Positions 4,668 to 24,016 of a stretch of DNA of 36,938 nucleotides are shown piece by piece. Source of the stretch: a virus. How positions within the stretch are numbered: position 1 is the stretch's first letter; every line of letters starts with the position of its first letter. The stretch spans positions 1 to 36,938 of the IMG/VR virus record IMGVR_UViG_3300025120_012093, one strand, 5' to 3'. Under the pieces are notes generated by a model. The model worked only from the letters and a program-made list of their open reading frames with translations. It had not been told where the DNA came from and made no database searches. The position numbers were made by a program, and so were the translations under genes.

Positions 4668-4727
4668 CACAAACAGCTCACCAAATTGGGAGCCGAGTAT
4701 TATATTAAAAACATAAATTTTAGAATT

Positions 4728-5168: not shown

Positions 5169-5175
5169 AAGAAGT

Positions 5176-5552: not shown

Positions 5553-5561
5553 AAAAAAAAT

Positions 5562-7435: not shown

Positions 7436-7439
7436 TTTG

Positions 7440-8383: not shown

Positions 8384-8395
8384 AAACAAATAAAG

Positions 8396-9072: not shown

Positions 9073-9293
9073 AAAAAAGTAAAGTTATATCAGCTTTAAA
9101 ATTACAAGCATTGGCCGATAAAGAAAAAGCATTAATGGCTTTAGATTTATTAGAAACTAAAGCAGTTGGGATAGGTGATCATACAGCAAATGATTTCTTA
9201 GCTGATGCTACAGAATCATTAAATTTATTAGCAGAAGCCGATGATAGATTATATGCTATAGAAAAATATTTTACAACAAAAGAAATTATATAA
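9069..9293 (+). CDS. small helical hypothetical protein
   Basis: A 74-residue, almost fully helical protein whose ATG overlaps the gp62 stop (ATGA). The middle reads GDHTANDFLADATESLNLL, followed by a DDRLYAIEKYF helix. I do not recognise a function. The coupling to the clamp loader operon is clear from the overlap; the next gene follows after 1 base. Confidence 0.65.
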   Translation: MKKSKVISALKLQALADKEKALMALDLLETKAVGIGDHTANDFLADATESLNLLAEADDRLYAIEKYFTTKEII

Positions 9294-9294
9294 A

Positions 9295-9666
9295 ATGGAA
9301 AAACCAATATCCCCTTGTGTAGGACATGATTTTGAAGTACTGCATATTTTTGAAGAAGAATATCCTGAACTATCAAAAGAATTTAAAAAAATCCAAGATG
9401 AAATGTATGAAACCTTTGCTCGTAAACATATGGATTATGGTTTACAAAATATTTCATTAGGTGGGGATTTAACTAAAGAAAATGATAAAACATTTTCATT
9501 AACTGGGTTGGCAATTAGATTAACTGATAAAGTATCCAGATTAAGAAACTTATTAGTAAATGGAAAAAGTTTTGTAAAAGGTGAAGGAATGGAAGACACA
9601 TTCCTAGATGTAGCTAATTATGGTATAATTGGTTTATTAGTTGGGCGTGATAAGTGGAAAAAATAA
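9295..9666 (+). CDS. DUF1599 / Nmad1-like nucleotide modification associated protein
   Basis: A 123-residue protein resembling the DUF1599 family, also named nucleotide modification associated domain 1. Visible signs are KHMDYGLQN near residue 41, the RLTDKVSRLRNLL helix around 75-87, and DTFLDVANYGIIG near the end, a helical pattern with acidic residues like that of all-alpha NTP pyrophosphatases. The family name comes from its association with phage base-modification genes; biochemical activity in this case is not shown. With the folE and MazG-like genes at the window start it suggests that nucleotide pools, and perhaps DNA bases, are altered. The following nuclease gene starts immediately after the stop. 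Confidence 0.68.
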   Translation: MEKPISPCVGHDFEVLHIFEEEYPELSKEFKKIQDEMYETFARKHMDYGLQNISLGGDLTKENDKTFSLTGLAIRLTDKVSRLRNLLVNGKSFVKGEGMEDTFLDVANYGIIGLLVGRDKWKK

Positions 9667-10623
9667 ATGAAAAAGATTCCTAAAATAGTAAAAGAAATTC
9701 AAAATTATGTTCCTAAGGCAATTAATTATGCTGTAGAAAAGAATATTTCTTTTTCTCAACTCTCAATGTACGATGGTTGTGCTCATAGATGGGCACTACA
9801 ATATAGAGATGGTCATAAAATTTATACTCCTAGCATGCATGCTGTGTTTGGAAAGGCATTACATGAAGCTCTTCAACATTATTTAGATATAATGTATAAA
9901 GAAAGTGGTGCGGCCGCTGATAGAATAGATATTTTAGATTTTTTTAAAACAAGTTTAAAAGAAAATTACTTATCGGATTATGAGAAAAATAAAAGCATTC
10001 ATTTTTTTAAAGATGGAGAGTTACAAGAATTCTACCAGGATGGCGAGAACATAATTAATTATTTTAAAAAACATAAGGGAAAAACTTTTAGTAAAAGAGG
10101 AACGTATTTAGTAGGTTGTGAGATTCCTATTATAATAAACCCAAATAAAATGTTTAATAAAGTTAAATTTCAAGGGTATCTTGATATTGTAATGTATAAT
10201 GAAACGTTAAATAGATTTACAATATATGATATTAAAACATCAACAAATGGGTGGGGTAAATGGGCTTTATCAAACAAAAATGCAATAAAGCACTACCAGT
10301 TAGTATTATATAAAAAGTTTTTTGCAGAACAGTTTGGAATCCCTGAAAAAAATATTGATATTGAGTTTTTTATAGTTAGAAGAAAAGTTTATGAAGATGG
10401 AGATTATCCACAAAAAAGAATACAAAAATTTATCCCTTCTCATGGAAAAACAACAATTAATAAAGCTACAAATGTATTAAATGATTTTATAAAAGATGTA
10501 TTTATTGGGAATGAATACAACCAGAAAGCTTACAAACCTAGTTTGGCTAACCCCAATAATTGTAGGTTTTGTCCGTATCACGGTAGTGATTTATGTCCTG
10601 GTACAAAGAATAGATCTTTATAA
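9667..10623 (+). CDS. PD-(D/E)XK nuclease of the Cas4/RecB type with Fe-S cysteines
   Basis: A 318-residue protein with the RecB-family nuclease layout: FSQLSMYDGCAHRW at the N-terminus (Cys38), FGKALHEAL with H66, GYLD at 170-173, YDIKT at 187-191 (D188 and K190 form the PD-(D/E)XK core) and HYQLVLY (Q211) after it. Cys299, Cys302 and Cys310 at the C-terminus plus Cys38 can hold a 4Fe-4S cluster as in Cas4 and AddB. Such enzymes are DNA exonucleases acting in recombination or end processing. Its position in the replication block, not next to any CRISPR array or Cas1, argues for a phage recombination or DNA-processing role. It starts directly after the Nmad1-like gene. Confidence 0.83.
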   Translation: MKKIPKIVKEIQNYVPKAINYAVEKNISFSQLSMYDGCAHRWALQYRDGHKIYTPSMHAVFGKALHEALQHYLDIMYKESGAAADRIDILDFFKTSLKENYLSDYEKNKSIHFFKDGELQEFYQDGENIINYFKKHKGKTFSKRGTYLVGCEIPIIINPNKMFNKVKFQGYLDIVMYNETLNRFTIYDIKTSTNGWGKWALSNKNAIKHYQLVLYKKFFAEQFGIPEKNIDIEFFIVRRKVYEDGDYPQKRIQKFIPSHGKTTINKATNVLNDFIKDVFIGNEYNQKAYKPSLANPNNCRFCPYHGSDLCPGTKNRSL

Positions 10624-10654
10624 TACGTATGTATAAATATAAAAATATAAGAAA
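10624..10654 (+). promoter_or_regulatory. possible promoter, contains TATAAATA
   Basis: The gap contains ATACGTATGTATAAATATAAA. TATAAATA at 10632-10639 equals the core of the T4 late promoter, and CGTATGTATAAAT also loosely resembles the TTCGTATATTTAC element. In such AT-rich DNA the match could be chance (it also occurs inside the clamp gene near 3905). If real it would open the small RHH-like gene and the glycan cluster. Confidence 0.3.
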
Positions 10655-10849
10655 ATGGCTAATAAAAATATGACACTAACAAGTGTAAAAGTAAAAAGTG
10701 ATTTGTTTGAAGAGTTTAAAATTCAATGTGTAAGAAGGAAATTTTCATTTCAAAAACTTTCAGATCGTGCAATCTATTTATATCTTACAGATGAAGATTT
10801 TAGAAAACAAATAAGCAACCATACAAATTTAGAATTAATAGAAAAATAA
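10655..10849 (+). CDS. small RHH-like putative DNA-binding protein
   Basis: A 64-residue protein. The segment TLTSVKVKSDLFEEFKIQC followed by a second helix (QKLSDRAIYLYL) has the strand-helix-helix arrangement and spacing of ribbon-helix-helix regulators of the Arc/MetJ/CopG type, in which the short strand reads DNA. No more specific match is possible by eye. It sits directly upstream of the glycan cluster (7-base gap), so it could regulate it, but that is only a guess from position. Confidence 0.5.
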   Translation: MANKNMTLTSVKVKSDLFEEFKIQCVRRKFSFQKLSDRAIYLYLTDEDFRKQISNHTNLELIEK

Positions 10850-10856
10850 ATAATAT

Positions 10857-12293
10857 ATGTCAAAAGAAGGTTACATTGAAAAAAATAAAAGGAAAAAAAT
10901 CCTTTTGTTATGTGATGATATTAGAGTCCACTCAGGGATAGCCCATATTGGGAAGGAAATAGTTTTAAAATCTGCTCATCATTATAACTGGGTTCAAATG
11001 GCAGGAGCAGTTAAACACCCAGACAAAGGTAAAACTATTGATTTATCCTCTACAATGGAAAAAGAACATGGTTTAAAAGATGCTTCAGTTATCTTATATC
11101 CCCAAGATGGGTATGGAGATAGTAGGATTGTAAGGGATATGATAAAAAAAGAAAAACCTGATGCTTTAATGTTAATTACTGACCCTAGATATTTCCAGTT
11201 TGTATTTCAAATTGAGAGTGAAATTAGAAAGGAAATTCCTATTATATATCTTAACATTTGGGATGATTATCCTGCCCCTCAATATAATGAAGAATACTAC
11301 GAGTCATGTGATGCTCTATATGGCATATCAAAACAAACAGTAAACATTAATAAAATAGTTTTAGGAGATAATGTAAAAGATAAGGTTATAGAATATCTCC
11401 CACATGGAATTAATGAAGAAATATTCAAACCCAGAGCTAAAGAAGATAAGTTAGTTTCTGAAATGGAAAAGAATATATTTAATGGTAAAGAATTTGATTT
11501 TAAAATACTTTTTAATTCTAGAAATATTAGAAGAAAACAAATATCGGATACTATATGGGCATTTAAAATGTTTTTAGATTCATTACCTAAAGAAAAAGCT
11601 GATAAATGTTGCCTTATGATGAAAACCCAACCAATAGATAATAATGGGACTGATTTAATAGCAGTATGTGAATATCTATTTGGTGATAGTTGGGTAAACC
11701 ATATTTTCTTTATTAATGCACATTTAAATACTGAACAGATGGGCTCTTTATATAATATAGCAGATGCTACTATTTTATTAACATCTAATGAAGGGTGGGG
11801 GTTAGCATTAACCGAAAGTTTATTATCAGGAACTCCAATTATAGCTAATGTTACAGGGGGAATGCAAGATCAAATGAGGTTTATTGATGAAAACGGAAAA
11901 TGGTTTACACCTTCACCTCAAATACCATCGAATAACACGCGTAAATATGAAACCCATGGTGAGTGGGCGTTTCCTGTTTTTCCCGCGTGTAGATCGCTTC
12001 AAGGTTCGCCTATAACGCCATATATTTGGGATGACCGATGCAAACCTGAGGATGCTACTGAAAGGATGAAAGAATTATATGAAATGTCATCTGAAGAAAG
12101 AGAATCAAGAGGAATGAAAGGTAGAGAATGGGCATTATCAGAAGAAGCTGGATTTACATCGGATTATCAAGGTAAAAGATTTATAGAATATACAGATAAA
12201 TTATTTAACACTTGGGAACCTAGAGAAAGATATGAATTCTTAAATAGTAATGAATATAAAGTAAGAACATTAAACCATAATTTAGTTTACTAA
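10857..12293 (+). CDS. glycosyltransferase, GT-B fold (GT4-like)
   Basis: A 478-residue protein with a GT-B layout. An N-terminal Rossmann part opens with KKILLLCDD and an HSGIAHIG loop. A central LPHGINEEIFKP linker is typical of GT4 enzymes. In the C-terminal nucleotide-sugar domain, SNEGWGLALTESLLSGTPIIA (about 311-331) is the E-x7-E motif region. Just after it comes a conserved-looking block with GEWAFPVFPACRSLQGSP, encoded by DNA richer in GC than the rest of the gene. The enzyme should move a sugar from an NDP-sugar to an acceptor. It opens the glycan cluster, and its stop overlaps the next start (TAATG). Confidence 0.82.
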   Translation: MSKEGYIEKNKRKKILLLCDDIRVHSGIAHIGKEIVLKSAHHYNWVQMAGAVKHPDKGKTIDLSSTMEKEHGLKDASVILYPQDGYGDSRIVRDMIKKEKPDALMLITDPRYFQFVFQIESEIRKEIPIIYLNIWDDYPAPQYNEEYYESCDALYGISKQTVNINKIVLGDNVKDKVIEYLPHGINEEIFKPRAKEDKLVSEMEKNIFNGKEFDFKILFNSRNIRRKQISDTIWAFKMFLDSLPKEKADKCCLMMKTQPIDNNGTDLIAVCEYLFGDSWVNHIFFINAHLNTEQMGSLYNIADATILLTSNEGWGLALTESLLSGTPIIANVTGGMQDQMRFIDENGKWFTPSPQIPSNNTRKYETHGEWAFPVFPACRSLQGSPITPYIWDDRCKPEDATERMKELYEMSSEERESRGMKGREWALSEEAGFTSDYQGKRFIEYTDKLFNTWEPRERYEFLNSNEYKVRTLNHNLVY

Positions 12294-13618
12294 TGAAAAA
12301 TACATTTTACATAAGCTGCCCAATTGATACTTACAGTGGGTATGGAGCTAGAGCAAGAGATTTTGTTAAAGCCATAATAGAATTAGATAAATATGAAGTT
12401 AAAATATTACCTCAAATGTGGGGTAATTGTCCTTGGGGTTTTATTGAAGATAATCCTGAATGGGAATTTTTAGATAAATTTATAATTAAAGATAATACTA
12501 TTCCACAAAAACCAGATATTTGGTGTCAACATACCATCCCAAGTGAATTTCAACCTGTGGGCCAATATAATATAGGTTTAACTGCGGGTATTGAAACTAC
12601 AATTCCAAACCCTAAATGGATAGAAGGATTAAATAGAATGGATTTAAATTTAGTTTCATCTGAACATTCTAAAAATGTATTTAAAGAAGCTAAATTTACA
12701 GGTAAAAATCCTCAAACTGGTCAAGAACATCCTTTAGAGTTAATAAAACCAATTGAAGTATTAATTGAGGGTGCAGATTTAGAATTATATAAACCTCATA
12801 ATGTATTTGAAAGTGAAGATATTTATGATGATATAAAATCTATACCTGAAAGTTTTGCTTACTTATTTGTAGGACATTGGATGCAAGGTGATATAGGACA
12901 CGATAGAAAGAATGTTGGTTTAATGATTAAGGCATTTTTAGAAAATTTTAAAAATAAGAAAAAATCCCCAGCACTTATTATGAAATGTAGTAGTTCAGTT
13001 TCATCTTATATGGATAGGAGAGAAATTCTTAGGAAGATACATGAAATAAAAAAATCTGTCCCAAGTAATAAATTACCTAATATTTATTTACTTCATGGAG
13101 AATTTACAAATGAAGAAATGAGTGAATTGTACAATCATCCTAAGGTAAAGGCTATGATTAATCTTACTAAAGGAGAAGGATTTGGTAGGCCTTTATTAGA
13201 ATTTAGCTTAACAAATAAACCTATTATTAGTACTAATTGGTCGGGTCATGTTGATTTTTTAAATCCTGAATTTGTACCTTTATGTGGAGGGCAATTAGAA
13301 GATGTCCATCCAACAGCTAAAAATGAATGGATTATAGAAGGGTCTAAATGGTTTAAGGTTGATTTAGGTAATGTGGGTTTCTTTTTAAATGATGTTTTTA
13401 ATAATTATAAAAATTATAAAAACAAAGCTAATAGACAAGGATTTTTTAGTAGAAGTAATTTTTCATTTGAAAAAATGGTTGAACAATTAAAAGATACTTT
13501 AAATAGAAATGTTCCTAAATTAACAAGCCAAGTTGAATTAAAACTACCAAAATTAAATCTCCCTAAGAAAAAACTACCAGAATTAAAATTACCAAATCTT
13601 AAAAAAGTTAAAGCATGA
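12293..13618 (+). CDS. glycosyltransferase, GT-B fold, with Lys/Leu/Pro repeat tail
   Basis: A 441-residue GT4-like protein. It begins with a CPIDTYSGYGARARDF loop, the usual glycine-rich acceptor-side turn. It has LIEGADLELYKP as the interdomain linker, and GEGFGRPLLEFSLTNKPII near residues 293-311 as the nucleotide-sugar binding helix with the E-x7-E glutamates. The last 30 residues are a striking run of short repeats of the form KLPxLxLP, ending KKVKA, unlike anything in the catalytic fold; this tail may bind a partner or a membrane surface. The donor and acceptor are unknown. It overlaps the following zinc-ribbon gene by 4 bases (ATGA). Confidence 0.8.
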   Translation: MKNTFYISCPIDTYSGYGARARDFVKAIIELDKYEVKILPQMWGNCPWGFIEDNPEWEFLDKFIIKDNTIPQKPDIWCQHTIPSEFQPVGQYNIGLTAGIETTIPNPKWIEGLNRMDLNLVSSEHSKNVFKEAKFTGKNPQTGQEHPLELIKPIEVLIEGADLELYKPHNVFESEDIYDDIKSIPESFAYLFVGHWMQGDIGHDRKNVGLMIKAFLENFKNKKKSPALIMKCSSSVSSYMDRREILRKIHEIKKSVPSNKLPNIYLLHGEFTNEEMSELYNHPKVKAMINLTKGEGFGRPLLEFSLTNKPIISTNWSGHVDFLNPEFVPLCGGQLEDVHPTAKNEWIIEGSKWFKVDLGNVGFFLNDVFNNYKNYKNKANRQGFFSRSNFSFEKMVEQLKDTLNRNVPKLTSQVELKLPKLNLPKKKLPELKLPNLKKVKA

Positions 13619-14088
13619 GCGTAGATAAATTAATAGTATGTAAACGTTGTGGATCAGATGCATGTTATGTAACTGAAGTAAATGATAAGATAAAAAATCA
13701 TTTCTGTTATGGGTGTGGTTTTCAATCTAATTCGTTAATGAAAAAAGATGAAGAGTTTTATAATAAGCAAATTGAATTACTTCCTAATTTATATAAGGAA
13801 TTAATGGGTGAAGATGAAGATGGGATGATTTGGATGCCTTCTACAATTAACATTCCAGAAAAAGGAATGGTATTTGCTAATGGTTCTAGTGGAGATAATT
13901 GGAAATGGGCAGCTGTACATGCGGTCCCAGTTAAAGACGAAGACAAAGAAAAATATCCTAATCCTCATAAAAAAGGAGAATATTATAAATGGAGAATGGA
14001 CATGGACACTATTAAAGAATTTGATGAAAGTGACTTTATAGAAGCCCTAGATTCTATAGGAATGTTTAAAGAACCAGTGGAAGATTAA
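13615..14088 (+). CDS. zinc-ribbon hypothetical protein
   Basis: A 157-residue protein with an N-terminal zinc ribbon: C9-x2-C12 and C31-x2-C34, with an extra C17. The remaining 120 residues contain GMIWMPSTINIPEKGMVF, a NWKWAAVHAVPV strand pair and a KWRMDMDTIKEFDESDFIEAL end. I do not recognise the family. It is coupled by overlap to the upstream glycosyltransferase and followed by a promoter-like element, so it closes the first glycan transcription unit. Confidence 0.65.
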   Translation: MSVDKLIVCKRCGSDACYVTEVNDKIKNHFCYGCGFQSNSLMKKDEEFYNKQIELLPNLYKELMGEDEDGMIWMPSTINIPEKGMVFANGSSGDNWKWAAVHAVPVKDEDKEKYPNPHKKGEYYKWRMDMDTIKEFDESDFIEALDSIGMFKEPVED

Positions 14089-14090
14089 GA

Positions 14091-14111
14091 TATTCTTCGT
14101 ATATTCCATAT
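14091..14111 (+). promoter_or_regulatory. promoter, TTCGTATATTCC element
   Basis: TTCGTATATTCC at 14096-14107 sits 4 bases before the ATG at 14112. It is a variant of the TTCGTATATTTAC element found before several genes. As with the clamp loader gene, the short spacing suggests a very short leader. It would start transcription of the remaining glycan genes. Confidence 0.5.
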
Positions 14112-14741
14112 ATGAAAGTAAGTTATGCAATCACTGTATGTAATGAATCTCAAGAAATTCAAAGACTAATTCCATTTTTAATTAATAATAAAAGGGAAGA
14201 AGATGAAATTGTAGTATTATATGATTCTGAAAACGGTACTAAATCTGTAGAAGATTATTTAAGAGCTAAATCAGTAAATACATATTCTAATTTTTCTTGG
14301 TATCCTTATAAATTCAATGGACATTTTGCGGATATGAAAAACTACCTTACTAGCTTATGTAAGGGGGATTACATATATCAAATTGATGCAGATGAACTTC
14401 CAACATTATTTACATTAAAAACCCTCCCCTCAGTATTAGAAATGAACCAAAATGTAGATGTTTTTTTAGTTCCTCGAATAAACACAGTAAAGGGCATTAC
14501 AAGTGACCATATACAAAAATGGAGATGGAATGTAAACCCAAAAGGCTGGGTAAATTTTCCTGACTATCAATGGAGAATCTATAAAAACCATGAAAATATT
14601 AAATGGAAAAATAAAGTACATGAAGTGTTAGAAGGATATGAAGTTATGACCCAACTCCCTTCTGAAGAAGAATGGTGTTTAATTCATGATAAGACTATAG
14701 AAAAGCAAGAAAAACAAAATAATTACTATAATACATTATGA
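14112..14741 (+). CDS. glycosyltransferase family 2-like (GT-A)
   Basis: A 209-residue protein opening with VSYAITVCNESQEI, the usual GT2 first strand, and holding DADE at 92-95 as the DxD metal and donor site. The segment RWNVNPKGWVNFPDYQWRI followed by KNKVHEVLEG resembles the C-terminal part of small GT2 enzymes such as the WaaE/KdtX type, where the WxxxVHE motif is conserved. The stop overlaps the next start (ATGA). The sugar donor is unknown. Confidence 0.75.
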   Translation: MKVSYAITVCNESQEIQRLIPFLINNKREEDEIVVLYDSENGTKSVEDYLRAKSVNTYSNFSWYPYKFNGHFADMKNYLTSLCKGDYIYQIDADELPTLFTLKTLPSVLEMNQNVDVFLVPRINTVKGITSDHIQKWRWNVNPKGWVNFPDYQWRIYKNHENIKWKNKVHEVLEGYEVMTQLPSEEEWCLIHDKTIEKQEKQNNYYNTL

Positions 14742-15751
14742 AAATAAGCTTTCTATCCATTATAGATTTTGCAAATGTGCTAACAGAGTACTCTTATTGT
14801 CTTAATAAACATAGTAAAGATATAGAATCAAAATCAATATGTTTTCAAAAACATCCATTTAATTATAATATCCAACATGATTATGATGTAGAGGAATGCG
14901 ATGCAGATCAAATTACAAAATCTAAACAATTTTTATTAGAAAGTGATATAATAATTTTCGCTGAAGAATCTTGGGAAGGTCAACAACCACATTTAGTGTA
15001 TAAAACTATAGAAAAATTTAGTATTGTTTATGGGATTGATTTATTTAAAATTAATGCAAAGTTTTGCATTTGGCATCCTGGATCATGTTATAGAGAAGTT
15101 TATCCTTTTTACAATAATCACCCTCAAAGGAAAAAAATACATAAACATTTTTATGGGATAGATTTATATAGGTTATCTAATAAAGAACAAAATGATGCAC
15201 CTATGCATGCCTACCAGTATATTGATTTTAATTATAATAAATTTATAACTACTTTTAAAGAAAAATTAAATCACAAACCTTGGACTATTTTACATATTCC
15301 TTCTAAAACCCAAACTAAAGGTACTAATATAATTAATAGAACTATTAATGATCTACATCTAGATTCTAATAAATTTCAATATAAAGTATTAACTAATATC
15401 CCTCATTCTGTCTCAATTTCTGAAAAACAAAAATCAATATTTTATATAGATCAATTTTGGCCTCAAGGTTGTGGAGGTTATGGAGTATCTACATTAGAAA
15501 GTTTATTTACTTCAAACTTTACATTTAGTACAATAAATAATATTACAGACTCAATGTTTAAATTAACAGGTAAATATGAATGTCCTGTTGTACCCTTAGG
15601 TACTACTGAAGAAGAATTATTAAATACTTTAAATCATTTTATAAAATCAATTACAGAAGATGATTTAATAGGATATATGGAAGGTATAGGTAAATGGTTA
15701 GAAGAATGTTATTCAGTTAAATCAGTAATTAAATTTTTTAAAAGCATATAA
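14738..15751 (+). CDS. putative glycosyltransferase, GT-B-like
   Basis: A 337-residue protein without a clear signature. The C-terminal half reads WTILHIPSKTQTKGTNII, like the start of the GT-B donor domain in which a His-x-Pro segment is followed by KGT, and later GYGVSTLESLFTSNF resembles the acidic helix of GT4 enzymes. The N-terminal half contains a CIWHPGSCYR strand. Context (glycosyltransferase before, aminotransferase after, 4-base overlap upstream) supports a glycan role. It could be a divergent transferase with an unusual acceptor. Confidence 0.55.
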   Translation: MKISFLSIIDFANVLTEYSYCLNKHSKDIESKSICFQKHPFNYNIQHDYDVEECDADQITKSKQFLLESDIIIFAEESWEGQQPHLVYKTIEKFSIVYGIDLFKINAKFCIWHPGSCYREVYPFYNNHPQRKKIHKHFYGIDLYRLSNKEQNDAPMHAYQYIDFNYNKFITTFKEKLNHKPWTILHIPSKTQTKGTNIINRTINDLHLDSNKFQYKVLTNIPHSVSISEKQKSIFYIDQFWPQGCGGYGVSTLESLFTSNFTFSTINNITDSMFKLTGKYECPVVPLGTTEEELLNTLNHFIKSITEDDLIGYMEGIGKWLEECYSVKSVIKFFKSI

Positions 15752-15752
15752 G

Positions 15753-16844
15753 ATGATTAGAATAATAAAACCATATTTAAAATATAGAAATATTAATAGG
15801 AAGTTTAGAAAAATATTTAAAACAGGGTTCTTTACTAAAGGGGAATATGTAGAACAATTCCAAAATGATTTAAAAAATTATATAGAATGTGATTATTCTT
15901 TTTTAACAACATCAGCTACAACTGCTTTAAGTTTATCTTTAGAAATTATTAATATCCAACCAGGTGATGAAGTTCTTGTTTCTGATTTTTCATACCCCGC
16001 AAGTGCTAATGTCATAGAAAATATGGGTGCTGTTCCTATATTTGTTGATGTTAATCTTAAAACATATAATATGGATACTAAGGATTTAATTTCAAAAATT
16101 ACTCCAAAATCAAAAGCAGTAATGTTTGTAGATGCTTTAGGTAATCCTTCTAATATCCATTCAATAAAAAATATATGCCAAGGCCATAATCTACCTCTTA
16201 TAGAAGATGCAGCATGTGCCTTAGGTAGTAGTGAATTTAATCAAAAAAATGGTTCTATAGCAGACTTAACCTGTTTTAGTTTTCATCCAAGAAAATTATT
16301 AACAACAGGAGAGGGAGGTGCAATTACTACAAATAATAAAGCATATGCCGATTTACTTAAGGTAAAATTAAATCATGGAGCTATTTACAATAATAATAAA
16401 TTAGACTTCATCCAACCTGGATATAATTATAGAATGACTGAATTTCAAGCTGTAATGGGAATTGAAAGTTTAAAAAAACTCAATTCAGTTATATTTTCTA
16501 GAAATAAAATAAAAAACCAATATATTAATTTATTAACACCTTTAGGTTTTACACCTCAAACTTTAAGCTTTGGGGCTTTTCATAATATTCAATCTGTAAT
16601 TTTTCAAGTCCCTAAAGATATAAAAAGAGATGAATTAATTTTATTTTTAAAATCTTGTGGGATAGAATCAACATTAGGAACTTATTGTTTAAGTAATACA
16701 ACTTATTATAAAACAAAATATAATAAGGTTCAACCTAATGCTTTATACTTAGAACAAAATACAATAACATTACCATGTTATGGAGGAGTAAATGTTAAAA
16801 AAATATGTAAAAAAATTGAAAAATTTATTCTTAATAATATATAA
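15753..16844 (+). CDS. DegT/DnrJ/EryC1-type sugar aminotransferase
   Basis: A 363-residue PLP enzyme of normal length. GDEVLVSDFSYPASANV at 71-87 and GAVPIFVDV are family strands; EDAACALGS (D152) binds the pyridine nitrogen; SFHPRKLLTTGEGGAI (176-191) holds the PLP lysine K181. The QPGYNYRMTEFQAVMG block is also typical. It transfers an amino group, usually from glutamate, to a 3- or 4-keto NDP-sugar. The SDR gene at 17998 could supply the keto sugar, and the formyltransferase-like gene at 17316 could act on the new amine. Confidence 0.9.
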   Translation: MIRIIKPYLKYRNINRKFRKIFKTGFFTKGEYVEQFQNDLKNYIECDYSFLTTSATTALSLSLEIINIQPGDEVLVSDFSYPASANVIENMGAVPIFVDVNLKTYNMDTKDLISKITPKSKAVMFVDALGNPSNIHSIKNICQGHNLPLIEDAACALGSSEFNQKNGSIADLTCFSFHPRKLLTTGEGGAITTNNKAYADLLKVKLNHGAIYNNNKLDFIQPGYNYRMTEFQAVMGIESLKKLNSVIFSRNKIKNQYINLLTPLGFTPQTLSFGAFHNIQSVIFQVPKDIKRDELILFLKSCGIESTLGTYCLSNTTYYKTKYNKVQPNALYLEQNTITLPCYGGVNVKKICKKIEKFILNNI

Positions 16845-17316
16845 AAAGGTTTATAATAGGTTATACCTAAATAAAAAATCTAAATATAATAGAAGTCTTT
16901 CTTTGGGGGATTATCTCAATGATAGATGGGAAAGAGGTAAAAAAGAAGGGTTTGGAGAAGGTACTTCAGTTTACGATAATGTTTTAATTTTAGGAGATGT
17001 TAAAGTTGGTAAAAATTGTTGGATTGGGCCTAATGTTGTATTAGATGGAAGTGGTGGATTAGAGATAGGTGATTATTGTTCTATATCAGCAGGGGCTCAA
17101 ATTTATACTCATCATACTGTAAAATGGTCAACTTCTTTAGGTAAAGAAAAAATAGAATATAACCCTACAAAAATAGGAAATGGAGTTTATATTGGACCTC
17201 ATAGTGTAGTTCAAATGGGGTGTAATATTGGAGATAAAGCAATAATTGGAGCTTTAACTTTTATTAATAAAGATATAAAAAAAGGAGAAAAATATCATAA
17301 TAAAATTAAAAAATAA
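16792..17316 (+). CDS. left-handed beta-helix acyltransferase (hexapeptide repeat)
   Basis: A 174-residue protein. After a basic, partly hydrophobic N-terminus it has hexapeptide turns (GDVKVGKNCWIGPNVVLDG, EIGDYCSISAGAQIYTHHT, KIGNGVYIGPHSVV, NIGDKAIIGALTFI), the fold of sugar O- and N-acetyltransferases; the histidine pair in YTHHTVKW is a likely catalytic site. The gene overlaps the aminotransferase by 53 bases. There is no later in-frame ATG before the conserved region, and the N-terminus looks family-like, so I keep this start. It probably acetylates the amino sugar or another hydroxyl group. It ends on the first base of the next start codon (TAATG). Confidence 0.83.
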   Translation: MLKKYVKKLKNLFLIIYKKVYNRLYLNKKSKYNRSLSLGDYLNDRWERGKKEGFGEGTSVYDNVLILGDVKVGKNCWIGPNVVLDGSGGLEIGDYCSISAGAQIYTHHTVKWSTSLGKEKIEYNPTKIGNGVYIGPHSVVQMGCNIGDKAIIGALTFINKDIKKGEKYHNKIKK

Positions 17317-18008
17317 TGAATATAGGAGTATTTGCTTACAATTTTCCACATTGGAAAACCCAAGAAGGAATAAACAATTTAATAATATCAGGTAATAAAC
17401 CTAAAGTAATATTTGCATCAGATCCAGTTAAACTAAATTTTTATAAATCAAAAATAAGAATAACACCTAAAGACTTATATTTAACCCATCCTAAAGAAAT
17501 AGCAAGACAACATGGAATTGATTATAAAATATTAATCCATAACTCAGAAGAAACAAATAATCAAGTAAAAGAATATAACCTAGATTTAGGTATAATATTA
17601 GGGGCAAGAATATTAAAACCAATTGCATTTGAAAACTTCACTATAGGAGTACTTAATATGCATCCTGGGCTGCTTCCAAAAAATAGAGGATTAGATAATA
17701 TTAAGTGGGCTATTTTAGATAATATTCCACAAGGAGTAACAACTCATTTAATAGATAAATCAATTGATAGAGGGAAAAGCATCTTAAAAGAAGAAATTAA
17801 AATATATAAAGATGATTCATTAGTTGATTTAAATATCAGAATTCAAAATTTAGAACAGAAGTTAATGGTAGACTCTATAACATCACTTAAAGAAAATATA
17901 CCTACTCAAATTTTAGGAGAAGGTACTTACTATAAATCTGTTCCTGAAGATATAGAAAAAACATTACACCAAAAATTTATAGAATATAAAAATAAAAATG
18001 GAAAATAG
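17316..18008 (+). CDS. sugar N-formyltransferase-like protein
   Basis: A 230-residue protein with the formyltransferase core: NMHPGLLPKNRG at 114-125 gives the catalytic Asn114 and His116, and DRG at 151-153 supplies the aspartate of the N-H-D triad shared by Fmt and ArnA-type enzymes. DLGIILGARIL precedes it as the expected strand. Family members use N10-formyl-tetrahydrofolate. Since it lies between an acyltransferase plus aminotransferase and an SDR gene, its substrate is probably an NDP-amino sugar and not Met-tRNA, and it lacks the tRNA-binding C-terminal domain. Overlaps the next gene by 11 bases. Confidence 0.8.
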   Translation: MNIGVFAYNFPHWKTQEGINNLIISGNKPKVIFASDPVKLNFYKSKIRITPKDLYLTHPKEIARQHGIDYKILIHNSEETNNQVKEYNLDLGIILGARILKPIAFENFTIGVLNMHPGLLPKNRGLDNIKWAILDNIPQGVTTHLIDKSIDRGKSILKEEIKIYKDDSLVDLNIRIQNLEQKLMVDSITSLKENIPTQILGEGTYYKSVPEDIEKTLHQKFIEYKNKNGK

Positions 18009-18975
18009 ACCAAAAATTAAAAATAGTACAATTCTAGTTACTGGTGGGGCTGGATTTATAGGGAGTCATTTAGTTGATAGACTATTATTAGAAGAAGCTA
18101 AACAAGTAATTGTCATAGATAATATGTTTCTTGGAAATGAAGATAATTTAAAAGATGCTTTTAAACAGGGAGTTATTCTTTATAAAGATGATTGTGAGAT
18201 ATATACTTCTTTAGAATATATATTTAATAAGCATAATATTGATATAGTTTTTAATTGTGCCACAAAACCAATTAATTATACTTTTTTAAACCCTGCAAAT
18301 GGATTTCATTGTAACACTAATATTATAGTTAACTTATTAGAACTTCAACGTAAAAATAAATTTAAAACATTAGTACATTTTTCCACATCAGAAGTATTTG
18401 GTAGTGCTGTTTATGAACCTATGGATGAAAATCATCCTTTAAATCCAAAAACAACATATGCTGCTGGAAAAGTAGGTGCGGATAAAGCATTAGAATCTTG
18501 GGTAGATAGTTTTGATTTAGATGCTTTTATAGTTAGACCGTTTAATAATTATGGCCCTAGACAAAATTCAAAACCACCTTTGGCTGCCGTAATTCCTGTT
18601 ACTATGTTTAACCTAATTAATAATAAACCCCCAGAAATTTGGGGAGATGGATTACAAAGTAGAGATTTTATTTATGTACATGATACTGTAGATGCTATTA
18701 TAAAAGTTTATGATAAATTAAAACCAAAGGAATCAGTAAATATATCTACAGATGGTCAAATTACTATTAAAGAAGTTATAGAAGATATTTGTAATATTAT
18801 GAGGGGGATGAATTATAATGTAAATGATATAGTTTACAAACCTACTAGAAAAGCAGATGTGGAATGTCATATAGCTAGTAATAAAAAAATAAAATCACTA
18901 ATTAATTATCAACTTACTGACTTTACATATGGTTTAGGAGAAACTATTAGTTGGTATCAAAACAAATTAAAATGA
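17998..18975 (+). CDS. NAD-dependent sugar epimerase/dehydratase (extended SDR)
   Basis: A 325-residue extended short-chain dehydrogenase. GGAGFIG at 16-22 is the NAD-binding glycine motif, FSTSEVFG (about 128-135) contains the catalytic Ser/Thr, and Y154-x3-K158 is the active-site pair in TTYAAGKVGADK. RPFNNYGPRQ and the DFIYVHDTVDAI block are typical of UDP-glucose 4-epimerase and dTDP-glucose 4,6-dehydratase relatives. It should oxidise a NDP-sugar at C4, giving either an epimer, a decarboxylated sugar or a 4-keto-6-deoxy sugar; which cannot be told by eye. It overlaps both neighbours. Confidence 0.9.
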   Translation: MENRPKIKNSTILVTGGAGFIGSHLVDRLLLEEAKQVIVIDNMFLGNEDNLKDAFKQGVILYKDDCEIYTSLEYIFNKHNIDIVFNCATKPINYTFLNPANGFHCNTNIIVNLLELQRKNKFKTLVHFSTSEVFGSAVYEPMDENHPLNPKTTYAAGKVGADKALESWVDSFDLDAFIVRPFNNYGPRQNSKPPLAAVIPVTMFNLINNKPPEIWGDGLQSRDFIYVHDTVDAIIKVYDKLKPKESVNISTDGQITIKEVIEDICNIMRGMNYNVNDIVYKPTRKADVECHIASNKKIKSLINYQLTDFTYGLGETISWYQNKLK

Positions 18976-19982
18976 AATATAAAGTAGGAATAATAGGATG
19001 TGGTGGGATATTTCCTAGACATATAGAAGCAATAGAAGCTAACTCAAATTTTAAACTATCTTCAGTATGTGATATCCAACCCTCATTAATAAAAAGTTTA
19101 GGAAAGAGATATAAAGTACCTTCTCATACGGCTTACAAGGATATGATAGCTGCTGAAGATCTAAATTTTATTGTAATAGCAACTCCAAATTCGTTACATA
19201 AAGAGCAAGCTATTTTTGCATTAGAAAAAGGTTGCGATGTTTTAATAGAAAAACCAGTATCATTTAACATTCAAGATATAAAGTTAATTCAAGATTGTGC
19301 TGTTAAAAATAAACAAAAAGTATATTGTGTTTTACAAGTTAGATTAAACCCAACAGTTAGTTTAGTAAAAGAAGTTTTAAAAGAGAAATTATTAGGAGAA
19401 ATTAGAGGATTTTCATTTACACAAAGGTGGCAAAGACCTTTAGAATACTTTTCAGGATGGAGAGGAGAACCAGATGTAGGAGGTGGTATATTATACGAAA
19501 CTGCAATCCACTATTTAGATATCTTACAATATTTAATTGGAAATCCTAAAGAAGTATTGTCAACAAAAACCTATACTACTAAACATAAGGATGCTATAAT
19601 TGAAGATACAGTTTATTCTCTAGTTGATTATGGTAAATTTGGGGGTACTATTGAATCTACAATAGCATCAGAACCTCATAACATAGAAAGTTCTATAACT
19701 TTAATGGGTTCTAATGGTTATATTAAAATTGGAGGTAAAGCTCTTAATATTATAGAATCAGCTAATTTTTTAAGTCAAGGATTTAAAAATGAATATAATA
19801 AAATATCTAAAAAATATTCTAAGATAAATGAACCTAATTCATATGGTTCATATCAAGGATCATGTCCTAATCATCCTGAAGTTTATCGAAATTTAAATAA
19901 TTTTAGCTTGGAAGAGACAAATAATGTCATTATCTTGATAGAAGAAATATATAAAAAGTCTAACATACAATATGGAAAGTAA
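18972..19982 (+). CDS. Gfo/Idh/MocA-family sugar oxidoreductase
   Basis: A 336-residue protein starting KVGIIGCGGI, the NAD(P)-binding motif, with EKPVS at 93-97, the dinucleotide-binding and catalytic lysine motif of the family. GGGILYETAIHYLDI follows, with the His of the active site in the usual place. I took the ATG at 18972, which overlaps the SDR stop (ATGA), over an in-frame ATG at 18951. These enzymes reduce or oxidise sugar nucleotides, for example at C3. It fits with the SDR and aminotransferase in an amino-sugar pathway. Confidence 0.9.
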   Translation: MKYKVGIIGCGGIFPRHIEAIEANSNFKLSSVCDIQPSLIKSLGKRYKVPSHTAYKDMIAAEDLNFIVIATPNSLHKEQAIFALEKGCDVLIEKPVSFNIQDIKLIQDCAVKNKQKVYCVLQVRLNPTVSLVKEVLKEKLLGEIRGFSFTQRWQRPLEYFSGWRGEPDVGGGILYETAIHYLDILQYLIGNPKEVLSTKTYTTKHKDAIIEDTVYSLVDYGKFGGTIESTIASEPHNIESSITLMGSNGYIKIGGKALNIIESANFLSQGFKNEYNKISKKYSKINEPNSYGSYQGSCPNHPEVYRNLNNFSLEETNNVIILIEEIYKKSNIQYGK

Positions 19983-20778
19983 ATTATTAATTTATATAGT
20001 ATCCTATGAAAGAAAATCATACACACAAGGTACTATAGAGTGTCTCCAAAAAACCAAACCATTAAATTCTCAAATTATAGTTTGCGATAACGGTTCTACA
20101 GATGGAACAAGAGAATGGTTGGAAGAAAACCAATCTAAATATGATTTAGGATTAATATTCCCCGAAGAAAATTTAAGGGTAGGTGGAGCTTGGACTTTAT
20201 TAACTAACTATTACAATGAGAATGATTTTGATCATATTCTTCTTTTAGATAATGATGGATGGGTTTTACCTAAAGAAAAAGATTGGTACGAACAATGCAT
20301 AGAATTATATAATTCGGATCCAAAAATAGGATCATTAGGGTTACATAAAGAAAGAAAACCTGGATATTATGTTTTTGATAAAGTAAAAGATGAAAATTAT
20401 GATAATAGAAAAACCTTTAAAAAACTAGAATACTATGATACGGTATTTTTTGCTGCTTTTAGATTAGATAAATTTTCATTATGGCATAAAACTATGAGTA
20501 ATTGGCCTCATAAATTTATTGGGGATAAAATTGGAAGACATTATAATTCTTTAGGATATAGAGCACTTAAAATAACCCCAGGATTTATAGTAGACATTTC
20601 AGAATGTAATTTTAACAATGAATCCCACCAAGAGTATAATCAATGGTTTTTTGAGAAAGAAAGAGATGGTAGAAATGGATCTGCTTATAACCATAAAATA
20701 TCAGGTTCATTTGAAAAAAATCAAACCCATGATTTTGTTACAGAAAACTTTGGAAAAGAATTTATTAAATTTTTATAA
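19972..20778 (+). CDS. glycosyltransferase family 2
   Basis: A 268-residue GT-A enzyme. IYIVSYERKSY begins the fold, VCDNGSTDGTREWL at 38-50 is the classic donor base-binding loop, and LLLDNDG at 90-96 holds the DxD metal site. The length is normal for a soluble GT2. No membrane segment is seen, so it acts in the cytoplasm on a soluble, lipid-linked or protein acceptor. It overlaps the oxidoreductase by 11 bases and is followed after 1 base by the methyltransferase. Confidence 0.9.
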   Translation: MESKLLIYIVSYERKSYTQGTIECLQKTKPLNSQIIVCDNGSTDGTREWLEENQSKYDLGLIFPEENLRVGGAWTLLTNYYNENDFDHILLLDNDGWVLPKEKDWYEQCIELYNSDPKIGSLGLHKERKPGYYVFDKVKDENYDNRKTFKKLEYYDTVFFAAFRLDKFSLWHKTMSNWPHKFIGDKIGRHYNSLGYRALKITPGFIVDISECNFNNESHQEYNQWFFEKERDGRNGSAYNHKISGSFEKNQTHDFVTENFGKEFIKFL

Positions 20779-20779
20779 A

Positions 20780-21358
20780 ATGATAGAACTAGAACAACGA
20801 ATAAATCAATTATACACAACCCCATCTGATATAAATGAACATATTCCTACATTAATTAAATATGGGCAAGAATGTAACCATATAACTGAAATGGGAGTTA
20901 GAGGAATAATTTCAACATGGGCTTTTTTAGGGAGTGCTCCTAAAAAAATGATGAGTTATGACATTCAAAACCCTAAAGAATGGGATCAAGATATAAATGA
21001 AGTATATGAAACAGCAGAAGCTTATGGTTTAGATTTTACATTTACTCAAGCAAATGTTTTAAAAATTGAGATTGAACCTACAGAATTGCTTTTTATTGAT
21101 ACATGGCATGCATATAAACAATTAAAATCAGAATTAGATTTACATGCTAATAAAGCATCTAAATATGTTATACTTCATGATACAACTTCATTTGAATTTC
21201 ATGATGAAACCTCATATGAAATGTGGGGTGATGAATGGAAAGGTGATGGGAAAGGGCTATGGCCAGCTGTTGAAGAATTTTTAGGAAGTAACCCACATTG
21301 GATACTTCATGAAAGATTTAAAAATAATAATGGTTTAACTATTTTAAAAAGAGTATAA
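20780..21358 (+). CDS. class I SAM-dependent methyltransferase
   Basis: With the ATG at 20780, just after the previous stop, the product is 192 residues; a longer version from 20618 would overlap the glycosyltransferase by more than 160 bases and looks like read-in. EMGVRGIIST at 37-46 is the SAM-binding motif I, FIDTWHAY at 105-112 and YVILHDTTSF at 129-138 match the CmcI / rhamnosyl O-methyltransferase type in which acidic residues and the LHDT histidine bind metal. It probably methylates a hydroxyl of the glycan made by this cluster. Confidence 0.8.
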   Translation: MIELEQRINQLYTTPSDINEHIPTLIKYGQECNHITEMGVRGIISTWAFLGSAPKKMMSYDIQNPKEWDQDINEVYETAEAYGLDFTFTQANVLKIEIEPTELLFIDTWHAYKQLKSELDLHANKASKYVILHDTTSFEFHDETSYEMWGDEWKGDGKGLWPAVEEFLGSNPHWILHERFKNNNGLTILKRV

Positions 21359-22003
21359 TTGGCAAACGGAATATATAAAGTAACAGAAGAATTCGAACAG
21401 GAATTATGTAAATATACAGGAGCAAAATATGCTGTAACTGTAGATAATATGAGTAATGGTTTATTTCTAGCTTTATATTATGAAAATCATATTAAAAAAA
21501 GTATCAAACCAAAATCAATTACCATCCCAAGTAGAACTTACCCATCAGTGCCTTGTGAAATAATACATGCAGGTTTAAAAGTAAAATGGGATAAAGTAAA
21601 TTCAAAAACTCTTACAGGAGCTTACCAATTAAAAGGATCTAATGTATGGGATTCAGCACTAACATTTACAGCTGAAATGTACCAACCTAAAACACATATG
21701 TGTGTGTCGTTTACTGGCCCATATAAGCATTTTAAATTAAGTAAAGGCGGAGCTATACTAACCGATAACCTACAAGCTTATCATTGGTTTAAACGCGCTA
21801 GATATAGTGGTAGACGTGAATGTTCTTATCATGATGATAATTTTGATATGCTTGGGTGGAATTTTTATATGATGCCTGAATTAGCAGCTAGAGGATTATT
21901 ATTAATGGGACAGTTTTATAATACTGATGGTACTAAAAAACAAAACAAGGATTTAACACTCCCTTATCCTGATTTATCAAAATTTAAAATATATAACCAA
22001 TGA
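21359..22003 (+). CDS. short DegT/DnrJ-type aminotransferase-like protein
   Basis: A 214-residue relative of sugar aminotransferases: FEQELCKYTGAKYAVTVDN, then PSRTYPSVPCEIIHAG (the strand around the PLP site), and SFTGPYKHFKLSKGGAILTDN, where the first lysine is in the place of the PLP lysine. It is about 150 residues shorter than the family norm and lacks most of the C-terminal domain. The start appears to be TTG at 21359, directly after the methyltransferase stop, as no suitable ATG exists. It may be a minimal or non-catalytic variant, perhaps working with the full-length enzyme at 15753. Ends overlapping the next start (ATGA). Confidence 0.7.
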   Translation: MANGIYKVTEEFEQELCKYTGAKYAVTVDNMSNGLFLALYYENHIKKSIKPKSITIPSRTYPSVPCEIIHAGLKVKWDKVNSKTLTGAYQLKGSNVWDSALTFTAEMYQPKTHMCVSFTGPYKHFKLSKGGAILTDNLQAYHWFKRARYSGRRECSYHDDNFDMLGWNFYMMPELAARGLLLMGQFYNTDGTKKQNKDLTLPYPDLSKFKIYNQ

Positions 22004-22584
22004 AATTAGCATTATTTGGGTATGGAGGACATGCCCGTGAAGTAGCAGCACAAATGCAAGAAGAAATAGTTTTTTTTGTAGATGATAAATTTGTCAAGTC
22101 TACACAAGGAAAAGCAAAACCAATATCAGAATTCAACCCAGAAACACATATGATGTTAGTAGCCATTTCTGATCCAAAAGAAAGAGAAAAAATAGTTAAA
22201 AGGATGCCTCTTAAAACATTATATTTTACCTATATTCATCCTTCAGCTCATACTATGGATGGCAATATCGAAGTAGGGGAAGGGAGTTTTATAGGTGCTA
22301 ATTCAATTTTAACTACAAATATAAAAATGGGAAAGCATTCTCTTTTAAATAGAGGAAATCATATTGGGCATGATTGTGTAATAGGAGATTATCTTAGTAT
22401 GATGCCTGGATCTATAATATCAGGAAATGTTACTGTTGGGGATAAAGTTTATATGGGGTCAAACTCAACAATTAGAGAAAAATTAACAATTTGCAATGAT
22501 GTTGTAATAGGAATGGTTTCATGTGTTGTAAGAAAAATAACAGAAAGTGGGATTTATGTAGGTACCCCTTGTAAAAAAATATAA
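22000..22584 (+). CDS. NeuD-type sugar O-/N-acyltransferase
   Basis: A 194-residue protein of the NeuD/PglD family. LALFGYGGHAREVAA at 3-17 is the Rossmann-like N-terminal part, with the GYGGHA glycine motif; IHPSAHTMDGNIEVGEGSFIGANSIL starts the left-handed beta-helix, and RGNHIGHDCVIGDYLSMMPG contains the catalytic histidine pair of the family. It ends GIYVGTPCKKI, the standard PAK-like terminus. It transfers an acyl group from a CoA donor to an amino or hydroxyl group of a sugar. It is the second acyltransferase in the cluster. Confidence 0.88.
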   Translation: MKLALFGYGGHAREVAAQMQEEIVFFVDDKFVKSTQGKAKPISEFNPETHMMLVAISDPKEREKIVKRMPLKTLYFTYIHPSAHTMDGNIEVGEGSFIGANSILTTNIKMGKHSLLNRGNHIGHDCVIGDYLSMMPGSIISGNVTVGDKVYMGSNSTIREKLTICNDVVIGMVSCVVRKITESGIYVGTPCKKI

Positions 22585-22586
22585 AA

Positions 22587-23264
22587 ATGAAATTACATAT
22601 ATTTTACAGACATTATAATGTTCAAGGAACAGATAATAGAAATAGGCCTAGTTGGTTTGATTACGAAAAGTGTTATGATAATTTAGTCTCAACCTTAGCA
22701 TTTAATGAAAATGTTAAAATTAATATAGTATATGATGGTAAGGAAGATAATTGGATTAAGAAAAAACATTATCATAATTTTATAGAAATTGAAGCCAAAG
22801 AAGATATGAAGTCTTTTTGGGAAACTGTTAAATTAGCTCATGCAGATGATTTAATTGAAGATGATGACTTGATTTATTTTTTAGAAAATGATTACATGCA
22901 TGTAGAAGGATGGGTAAGTAAAGTATTTGATTTATTCCAAGCATATAAAGGATTAGATTATGTATCTTTATATGATCATAACGATAAATATTTTCTACCA
23001 ATGTATGAGGGTTTAACATCATTAATATTTCCAACTAAATCTCATCATTGGAGAACAACTCCATCAACATGCGGTTCTTTTATAGCAACTAAACAAAAAA
23101 TTAAAGATGATTTTGATATATTATCCACAATGAGAGGTGATCATAATAAATGGTTATGGTTAAATGAAAATAGAGAAAGATTTGTATTCACACCTTTACC
23201 AGGCTTATCTACACACTGTATGGATGGTCTTTTATCACCAACAATTAATTGGGAAGAAATATGA
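22587..23264 (+). CDS. putative glycosyltransferase, GT-A-like
   Basis: A 225-residue protein that begins KLHIFYRHYN and has the acidic strand YFLENDYMHVEGW at 97-109, which resembles a DxD-type donor site (ENDY) followed by a conserved GW. Downstream, WRTTPSTCGSFIATK is a likely acceptor loop. There is no clear GT family signature, and the assignment draws on context. It is preceded by the NeuD-like gene (2-base gap) and overlaps a GT2 gene by 4 bases (ATGA). Confidence 0.6.
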   Translation: MKLHIFYRHYNVQGTDNRNRPSWFDYEKCYDNLVSTLAFNENVKINIVYDGKEDNWIKKKHYHNFIEIEAKEDMKSFWETVKLAHADDLIEDDDLIYFLENDYMHVEGWVSKVFDLFQAYKGLDYVSLYDHNDKYFLPMYEGLTSLIFPTKSHHWRTTPSTCGSFIATKQKIKDDFDILSTMRGDHNKWLWLNENRERFVFTPLPGLSTHCMDGLLSPTINWEEI

Positions 23265-24016
23265 TCTCAGTAATAATACCAACATATAAAAATCCAGAAA
23301 TGTTAGATTTATGTTTAGAATCTGCAATCAAAGGACAAACAAAAGAAAACCAAATAATAGTAGTAGTTGATGGTTTTTATGACTTAAATAAAGAAGTCTT
23401 AGAAAAATGGGAAGATAGTATAGAGATTCTAAATTTAGAAGAAAATGTAGGTTTATGTAGAGGAACTAATTTAGGTGTTTATAATGCTCAATATGAAGAT
23501 ATTTTAATTGTAAATGATGATAATGTTTTCCCACACCAATGGAATTTAAAGTTAGAACATTGGAAGCTTCAAGATAATCAAATGATTGTCCCTAATCAAA
23601 TAGAGCCTAATCCATCTATATTTCCTCAATTTCATATAAAAGATTTTGGATCTGATGTTGAGTTATTTAATTTAAATGATTTTATTTCATATGAAAGTGC
23701 AATATCAAAAGATAAAATGGATATAGCAGGTTCAACATTACCCATTTATATGAAAAAATTAGATTATATAAGAATTGGGGGTTGGGATGAGAATTATGAA
23801 TTAGGTATGGTAGCCGATTGGGATTTTTTTCTTAAATGTAACCTATCAGGAATAAGATCATCAAGAGTGTATAATTGTCATTTCTATCATTTTGCTTCAG
23901 TTTCAACAAATGGGGAAAAGAGACAACGTGCAGAACAAAATGGACATGATTATTCCCAATATAAGTGGGGAAGTTATATAAAACATAATTCTTCTACAAA
24001 TTTAAAATATTTATAA
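23261..24016 (+). CDS. glycosyltransferase family 2
   Basis: A 251-residue GT2 enzyme: MISVIIPTYKNPEMLDLCLESA is the standard first helix and strand, ENVGLCRGTNLGVYNA is the usual mid motif, and VNDDN at 84-88 is the metal-binding acidic cluster. IGGWDENYELGMVADWDFFLK matches the acceptor and catalytic-base region (GGWDE...DWDF). I use the ATG at 23261, overlapping the previous stop as ATGA; an in-frame ATG 12 bases earlier is less likely. This is the last recognisable glycan gene. Confidence 0.9.
   Translation: MISVIIPTYKNPEMLDLCLESAIKGQTKENQIIVVVDGFYDLNKEVLEKWEDSIEILNLEENVGLCRGTNLGVYNAQYEDILIVNDDNVFPHQWNLKLEHWKLQDNQMIVPNQIEPNPSIFPQFHIKDFGSDVELFNLNDFISYESAISKDKMDIAGSTLPIYMKKLDYIRIGGWDENYELGMVADWDFFLKCNLSGIRSSRVYNCHFYHFASVSTNGEKRQRAEQNGHDYSQYKWGSYIKHNSSTNLKYL

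Follow-up and report, generated by a model that had tools for sequence, protein, structure and literature searches.

We describe a 13-kb glycan gene cluster of an aquatic phage, at positions 10857-24016 of a 36,938-base virus record from IMG/VR (IMGVR_UViG_3300025120_012093); the whole record was analysed and is called the window below. The cluster comprises 16 genes on one strand (the plus strand), with no gap wider than 23 bp. It combines a base of glycosyltransferase (GT) genes, kept throughout a phage lineage, with sugar genes behind the base that are hypervariable and swapped as cassettes; families of polysaccharide export are absent from it and from its sampled relatives. We presume, in a judgement that could fall either way, that the enzymes glycosylate in the cytoplasm an acceptor borne by the phage, probably a virion protein. 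It is known already that T4-type aquatic phages (cyanophages, pelagimyophages) carry glycan clusters. In marine T4-type phages these have been read as lipopolysaccharide (LPS) genes since the P-SSM2 genome, their function untried, and “stuffer DNA” has also been raised (PMC3037559). Three features are new, in that we found none of them in the literature searched: a fixed base shared by the whole lineage and joined to an exchangeable cassette, a six-gene unit transferred from one kind of phage to another, and a predicted amino sugar that is formylated.

Results

The window consists of a replication and chaperone side, the glycan cluster and a region of small genes. T4-type replication and chaperone genes occupy 246-10623 (a MazG-type gene, a family-B DNA polymerase in two open reading frames (ORFs), Hsp20, GroEL, gp44, gp62 and a PD-(D/E)XK nuclease); 3' of 24016 there are small genes and an HNH endonuclease. 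An earlier sequence-only reading had placed a 16-gene glycan cluster, nearly all of it gapless or overlapping, between T4-type replication genes and phage accessory genes, and the coordinates, strand, order and both flanks agree with ours. Its assignment of a glycan role to 15 of the 16 genes is supported by 11 genes that pass Pfam cut-offs, all as glycan enzymes (GT-B1, GT-A1, DegT, hexapeptide, formyltransferase, short-chain dehydrogenase/reductase (SDR), Gfo/Idh/MocA, GT-A2, short DegT, PglD-type hexapeptide and GT-A3), but is generous given an orphan (p157), two proteins that match no Pfam family (p337 and p225) and a weak methyltransferase match (E 0.012).

The base opens with GT-B1 (10857-12293), a GT4-type glycosyltransferase (PF00534, E 3.8e-9). 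Both by sequence and by fold its closest solved structure is the chlorovirus NY2A glycosyltransferase 3OY2 (B736L); the fold search does not fix the donor or the acceptor, since many GT4 enzymes are alike (MshA and BshA are among the fold matches). The second base gene, GT-B2 (12293-13618), scores 17.0 bits against a Pfam cut-off of 26.4, although the profile of its family matches a solved GT-B enzyme (3OY2, E 5e-4). Its C-terminus (13510-13618) is a Lys/Leu/Pro repeat tail of the LPKLKKIELPKLKK type, which is kept in nearly all relatives and perhaps binds a membrane or a partner. The orphan p157 (13615-14088) is conserved in kin and has degenerate Cys pairs; its AlphaFold model has a pLDDT of 91.8, and the fold search returned no relative in PDB and one match in BFVD, from an uncultured phage. 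p157 adjoins the GT pair in nearly all kin, and the Cys pairs are partly lost in some members. The near-invariant GT-A1 (14112-14741; GT2; PF00535, E 7.2e-7) is 43-68% identical in kin. Directly 5' of the base, at 10655-10849 on the same strand, lies a conserved protein of 64 residues, found at the same place in kin with 60-97% identity; it is possibly of the ribbon-helix-helix type, which is a guess.

A scan of IMG/VR with GT-B2 yielded 55 loci that form 39 groups at 95% identity. In the fragments of sufficient length the same order recurs: gp44, gp62, nuclease, the 64-residue protein, GT-B1, GT-B2, p157 and mostly then GT-A1. As this query is biased towards the base, a second search was anchored on the clamp loader. 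GT-B1 was present in all 31 loci in which the nuclease is followed by more than 1.5 kb, and GT-B2 in all 20 in which it is followed by more than 3.5 kb. Given two loci without a recognised nuclease that hold other genes at the base position (L160 and L186), there may be exceptions to a universal base. Pairwise distances of GT-B1 and GT-B2 track those of their neighbours (Mantel r with the nuclease, 0.80 for each; with gp62, 0.67 and 0.77, respectively), so both behave like core genes. Among isolates the cultured Flavobacterium phage immuto comes closest, with GT-B1 at 52%, GT-B2 at 54% and the same arrangement; the pair is also present in the Microcystis phage Mel-JY01, and RM378, a phage of Rhodothermus, encodes a divergent GT-B1 with a hypothetical gene sized like GT-B2 behind it. 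Megablast gave no match between the cluster and isolated phages.

The gene order of the cluster is not a product of chance, since it recurs in dozens of independent contigs. An assembly chimera was rejected on finding identical sequence in contigs G001, G002 and G006. Bacterial contamination was rejected as well: both flanks are phage DNA, with replication genes before the cluster and HNH and small genes behind it, and the order in kin is alike.

Behind the base, a block of six genes from p337 to Gfo/Idh (14730-19983) is 92.6% identical at the nucleotide level, over 5,254 bp, to G003, and its edges are gene borders. G003 is a 146-kb phage with a DNA polymerase of a different PHROG, and the only genes that it was found to share with the window are sugar genes; we conclude that the block was exchanged as a unit, and recently. 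At 26.4%, its G+C content is lower than that of the base (29.9%). The block includes p337 (14738-15751), a probable glycosyltransferase 85% identical in G003, with bacterial homologues of 25-33% in sugar loci and, in locus L080, a homologue beside a 63% identical Hexa1; a DegT-type sugar aminotransferase with the pyridoxal phosphate (PLP) lysine (15753-16844; PF01041, E 1.4e-85; nearest solved structures 9BGP, 8VR5 and 8VR3); and Hexa1, a hexapeptide N-acyltransferase (16792-17316; nearest solved structure 8VR6, E 2.8e-47, the next at 1.5e-9). These are followed by a sugar N-formyltransferase that has the N/H/D motif residues (NMHPGLLP, DRG) and solved sugar formyltransferases among its matches (17316-18008; PF00551, E 1.1e-17), an extended SDR with the STSEVFG motif, either an NDP-sugar dehydratase or a decarboxylase (17998-18975; PF01370, E 9.8e-49), and a Gfo/Idh/MocA sugar dehydrogenase with the EKP motif (18951-19982; PF01408, E 3.2e-24; nearest solved structures 3Q2I and 3Q2K). 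The SDR is 60-66% identical to bacterial sugar-locus proteins and 91-98% identical in two other phage contigs.

Other members of the lineage carry other sets at this place. The sister contig G004 has a UDP-GlcNAc 2-epimerase, NeuB and a CMP-sugar-type cytidylyltransferase, a set like that for nonulosonic acids; G005 has most of the window's sugar set together with a UDP-sugar dehydrogenase and an additional DegT. Loci L027 and L028, whose GT-B1 proteins are 91% alike, have a single cassette protein in common at 60% identity or more. Epimerase/dehydratases (22), GT2 enzymes (17), FkbM methyltransferases (11) and DegT proteins (10) are the most frequent families among the 148 cassette proteins of 16 kin loci. 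A second site of sugar-gene insertion, between gp62 and the nuclease, was seen in G005 (L017:6589-11957) and G004 (L019:3386-4117), where the G004 formyltransferase is found. G003 has more than one glycan region, with many sulfotransferase-like (HIPKTGG) and glycosyltransferase-like genes (L009-L016).

Distal to the block lie GT-A2 (19972-20778; GT2; PF00535, E 8.1e-14) and the probable methyltransferase (20780-21358; PF04989), which has a 63% homologue in G003 and, by comparison with a 195-residue relative (L006:13406-13993), probably starts at 20780 and not at 20618. The next gene encodes a short DegT-like protein of 214 residues (21359-22003). The two DegT genes that had been recognised earlier both pass the PF01041 cut-off, and the second, although short, is not broken: about one third of the fold is missing, the PLP Asp and Lys are kept, and the length is the same in four other phages (76% identity in immuto). 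The conserved length and active-site residues led us to reject a pseudogene; the protein is possibly a compact PLP enzyme. A PglD/NeuD-type sugar acetyltransferase follows (22000-22584; TIGR03570, 165.9 bits, over the cut-off); its immuto counterpart is 58% identical and also stands beside the short DegT, and the two are paired in L056 as well. The cluster is completed by p225 (22587-23264), which recurs in kin cassettes (homologues in G003, G005, L060, L066, L070 and Mel-JY01), and GT-A3 (23249-24016; GT2; PF00535, E 2.8e-15).

The phage DegT and Hexa1 have their best solved matches, by a clear margin, in the 8VR3/8VR5/8VR6 set, which are probably entries of a Psychrobacter triamino-pentose pathway; 3Q2I and 3Q2K are presumably WlbA, a UDP-N-acetylglucosaminuronic acid (UDP-GlcNAcA) 3-dehydrogenase. 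An SDR with a neighbouring code, 8VR2, is a middling match to the phage SDR, whose motif is compatible with both dehydratase and decarboxylase. NCBIfam equivalog models give no exact name for the sugar, with PseC, LegB and RmlB all below cut-off. In 14 bacterial loci with a matching SDR, Gfo/Idh stands directly 5' of the SDR in 10 and a DegT (48-65% to the phage DegT) directly 3' of it in 10, and several have a Hexa1 of 52-63%. The best fit is a predicted di- or triamino sugar derived from UDP-GlcNAcA, carrying acetyl and formyl groups and resembling 2,3,4-triacetamido-arabinose, a Psychrobacter O-antigen sugar (PMC8040287); the SDR may instead be a 4,6-dehydratase. The window has no UDP-sugar 6-dehydrogenase, which adjoins the cassette in G003 and G005 and may be supplied by the host.

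Export was addressed by searching 20 phage records, including the complete genomes of immuto, Mel-JY01, RM378 and P-SSM2, for PF01943 (Wzx), PF04932 (Wzy_C), PF02397 and PF00953 (priming transferases) and PF04138 (GtrA); 8 to 13 of 14 control bacterial genomes were positive, depending on the family. Neither the Wzx flippase (13 of the 14 controls positive) nor the GtrA flippase of prophage serotype conversion (gtrABC) was found in any of the records. Nothing passed the cut-off for Wzy_C or for the priming phosphoglycosyltransferases, the only traces being two sub-threshold fragments with stops, one in P-SSM2 and one in RM378, respectively. Tape measures aside, the kin DNA, about 1.3 Mb with overlaps counted, holds no ORF of more than five predicted transmembrane (TM) segments, while 12 of the 14 bacterial loci with the matching SDR have an ORF of at least eight. 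The absence of the export families from the phages, together with the polytopic proteins of the bacterial loci, supports non-export. The sequence-only reading had noted that the cluster lacks a flippase, Wzy and a membrane transferase, and had treated wzx, wzy or an undecaprenyl transferase elsewhere in the genome as contrary evidence; family and TM searches agree with the former, and complete relatives yielded none of the latter. Related phages that have the GT base and lack wzx/wzy do exist, e.g., the complete immuto. The cluster contains NDP-sugar enzymes and several glycosyltransferases, as do Wzx/Wzy-dependent O-antigen and capsule loci; the claim that it is as complete as an O-antigen locus nevertheless fails, as the priming transferase, flippase, polymerase and, in the window, UDP-sugar 6-dehydrogenase are all missing.

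A promoter-like element, TTTG-N20-TATATTTAC, lies before the clamp loader at 7436-7468 (plus strand). It is the last such site 5' of the cluster, which is therefore probably read together with the clamp-loader genes. CGTATATTTAC occurs six times exactly on the plus strand; with at most one mismatch allowed and both strands taken together there are eight, where 0.76 would be expected. Most of these elements have TTTG about 20 bases upstream, and the two-box sites of the window are all in coding orientation. TTTG-N20-CGTATATTTAC sites were found at 7436-7468, 26848, 28534, 28760, 30579 and 33457; the 85-bp surroundings at 28513, 28739 and 30558 are nearly identical. The elements resemble Bacteroidota promoters, which have TTTG and TAnnTTTG boxes. 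Such elements and the kinship to immuto suggest a Bacteroidota host, and the virus is probably a T4-related phage infecting this phylum.

Rfam and tRNA scans of the window found nothing. The family-B DNA polymerase (889-3879) is encoded by two ORFs of 588 and 312 residues with an 86-residue ORF between them. The split, with an ORF of 86-93 residues, is also present in kin contigs L027, L039 and L055, while G008 has a single ORF of 908 residues; it is conserved and natural.

Discussion

The division of the cluster may reflect a division of labour. The lineage-core transferases GT-B1, GT-B2 and usually GT-A1, with p157, would start the glycan on an acceptor brought by the phage, most likely one or more virion proteins, and the swappable cassette would make and attach the outer sugar. 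In the latter, Gfo/Idh would oxidise C3, the SDR would produce a 4-keto sugar through C6 decarboxylation or 4,6-dehydration, DegT would aminate it, and Hexa1 and the formyltransferase would N-acylate the product to an acetamido/formamido amino sugar; GT-A2 and GT-A3 would extend the chain further, perhaps with methylation. The phage genes would export nothing. The retention of the GT pair in phages of Flavobacterium, Microcystis and, divergently, Rhodothermus argues for a phage-brought acceptor, and a virion acceptor fits since the base spans host phyla, the enzymes are soluble and the chloroviruses offer a parallel. It is tempting to extend this to a lineage-wide glycoprotein coat with “serotypes”, in which the fixed pair acts on a virion protein, outer-sugar cassettes are exchanged between unrelated phages and a recogniser of phage sugars drives antigen-like variation; we regard this extension as somewhat doubtful.

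Several observations weigh against a virion acceptor. The base stands next to replication genes, away from the structural genes, and is apparently transcribed from the clamp-loader promoter. The match of GT-B1 to the chlorovirus enzyme covers mostly the nucleotide-sugar domain, with other GT4 enzymes close behind, and glycosylation of a virion protein is here a plausible prediction from gene content. Lipid-linked glycans made by the phage could reach the outside through a host flippase, and the window encodes a conserved protein of 112 residues with 3-4 TM segments (30052-30390), the only candidate small transporter, with relatives in immuto and G014; the one in immuto shows a weak likeness to SMR proteins (E 0.0098, below the cut-off).

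The published reading of cyanophage and pelagimyophage clusters is remodelling of the host surface (PMC3037559, PMC2984593, PMC7824862, PMC7029224): phage transferases would build on lipid-linked intermediates or the LPS core of the host, whose flippase, ligase and polymerase would place the product outside, with superinfection exclusion as the effect. The sugar enzymes are indeed of bacterial surface polysaccharide types, and the hypervariability resembles that of O-antigen loci. However, export and priming genes occur in no relative, complete genomes included, and a base that is invariant across phages of very different envelopes would be odd for a host acceptor; we consider this explanation rather unlikely, if a serious one. 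Glycosylation of a modified base of phage DNA by the base transferases, as a protection against restriction, seems to us improbable. It would suit the early-gene location, and T4-type phages do glycosylate DNA. Moreover, the phage modifies its DNA precursors: contig G006, which is 100% identical to window positions 1-16408, continues into FolE, QueE, QueD, QueC and DpdA, so the phage probably carries DNA of the preQ0 (7-deazaguanine) type. The expected product, preQ0, offers no evident hydroxyl or amine to which a glycan could be joined, and G006 has no match to QueF. Thymidylate-synthase-family genes (PF00303), which are not separable from ThyA, exist in immuto, G008 and G013, but none was found in the available DNA of this phage (window, G001 and G006; the genome is incomplete). 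Mel-JY01 and RM378 carry the GT pair without this DpdA, and no cluster gene has a Pfam match to the AGT or BGT DNA glucosyltransferases. With preQ0-DNA genes present and no hydroxymethylase in the available DNA, DNA is a weak acceptor. The sequence-only reading had a cytoplasmic glycan on virion proteins or modified DNA; non-export and the plausibility of virions stand, while DNA has become less likely. A soluble glycoside, nucleotide-sugar signal or lipid, with no coat at all, would accord with the many single-sugar enzymes and with GT4 enzymes such as MshA and BshA that make small glycosides, but an oligosaccharide is indicated by the row of five to seven transferases and by GT-A enzymes of chain-extension types; we give this very little credence.

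Together, the conserved GT base, p157 and the lack of export genes make up a defined gene set, and a cultured phage carries it. A virion acceptor would mean that phages possess a sugar-serotype system comparable to that of chloroviruses; a cellular acceptor would require a route through the flippases of the host. In both cases many phage genes annotated as “LPS” genes would have to be reinterpreted.

Comparison with known systems

The closest system is that of immuto (vB_FspM_immuto, Immutovirus, MW353175). It has the nuclease, a 60-residue protein, GT-B1 (52%), GT-B2 (54%), p157 (42%) and GT-A1 (55%) in the same order, followed by DegT, short DegT, PglD, epimerase and GT genes, and shares groEL and the 7-deazaguanine DNA genes. 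It differs in its sugar cassette, where no counterpart of Gfo/Idh or Hexa1 was found and the SDR and long DegT are only about 25% alike; the literature searched contains no description of what its cluster does. Bacterial amino-sugar loci of the order DegT-hexapeptide-Gfo/Idh-SDR-DegT-hexapeptide (e.g., Marinomonas, L090) resemble the cassette in SDR (60-66%), DegT (48-65%), Hexa1 (52-63%) and neighbourhood. They differ in having their own Wzx/Wzy-type proteins of 8-14 TM segments, and the window lacks their first amination/acylation pair unless the short DegT/PglD pair serves.

The “LPS” clusters of cyanophages P-SSM2, S-SSM7 and S-SM2 also belong to T4-type aquatic phages and are large sugar and GT clusters, polymorphic between relatives (PMC3037559, PMC7824862), a trait that the present cluster has as well. 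The P-SSM2 cluster was compared through family searches and papers; Wzx and the priming-transferase families were not found in the P-SSM2 genome either. In contrast to the window, GT-B1 is unmatched in these cyanophages, the clusters have other locations and no fixed base with a cassette has been described. The GTs of the pelagimyophage host-recognition cluster likewise form a hypervariable island in T4-like aquatic phages (PMC7029224), but are mostly GT8 and often in the tail-fibre island, whereas those of the window are in a replication-side operon. Chloroviruses differ in being eukaryotic viruses with N-glycans, the present system being known at the gene level. They use enzymes of their own to glycosylate the capsid protein in the cytoplasm, and every member has the core transferases (PMC5408694, PMC7826918). 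The likeness consists in soluble virus-encoded transferases, among them B736L as the nearest solved relative of GT-B1, and in a universal core with variable decoration.

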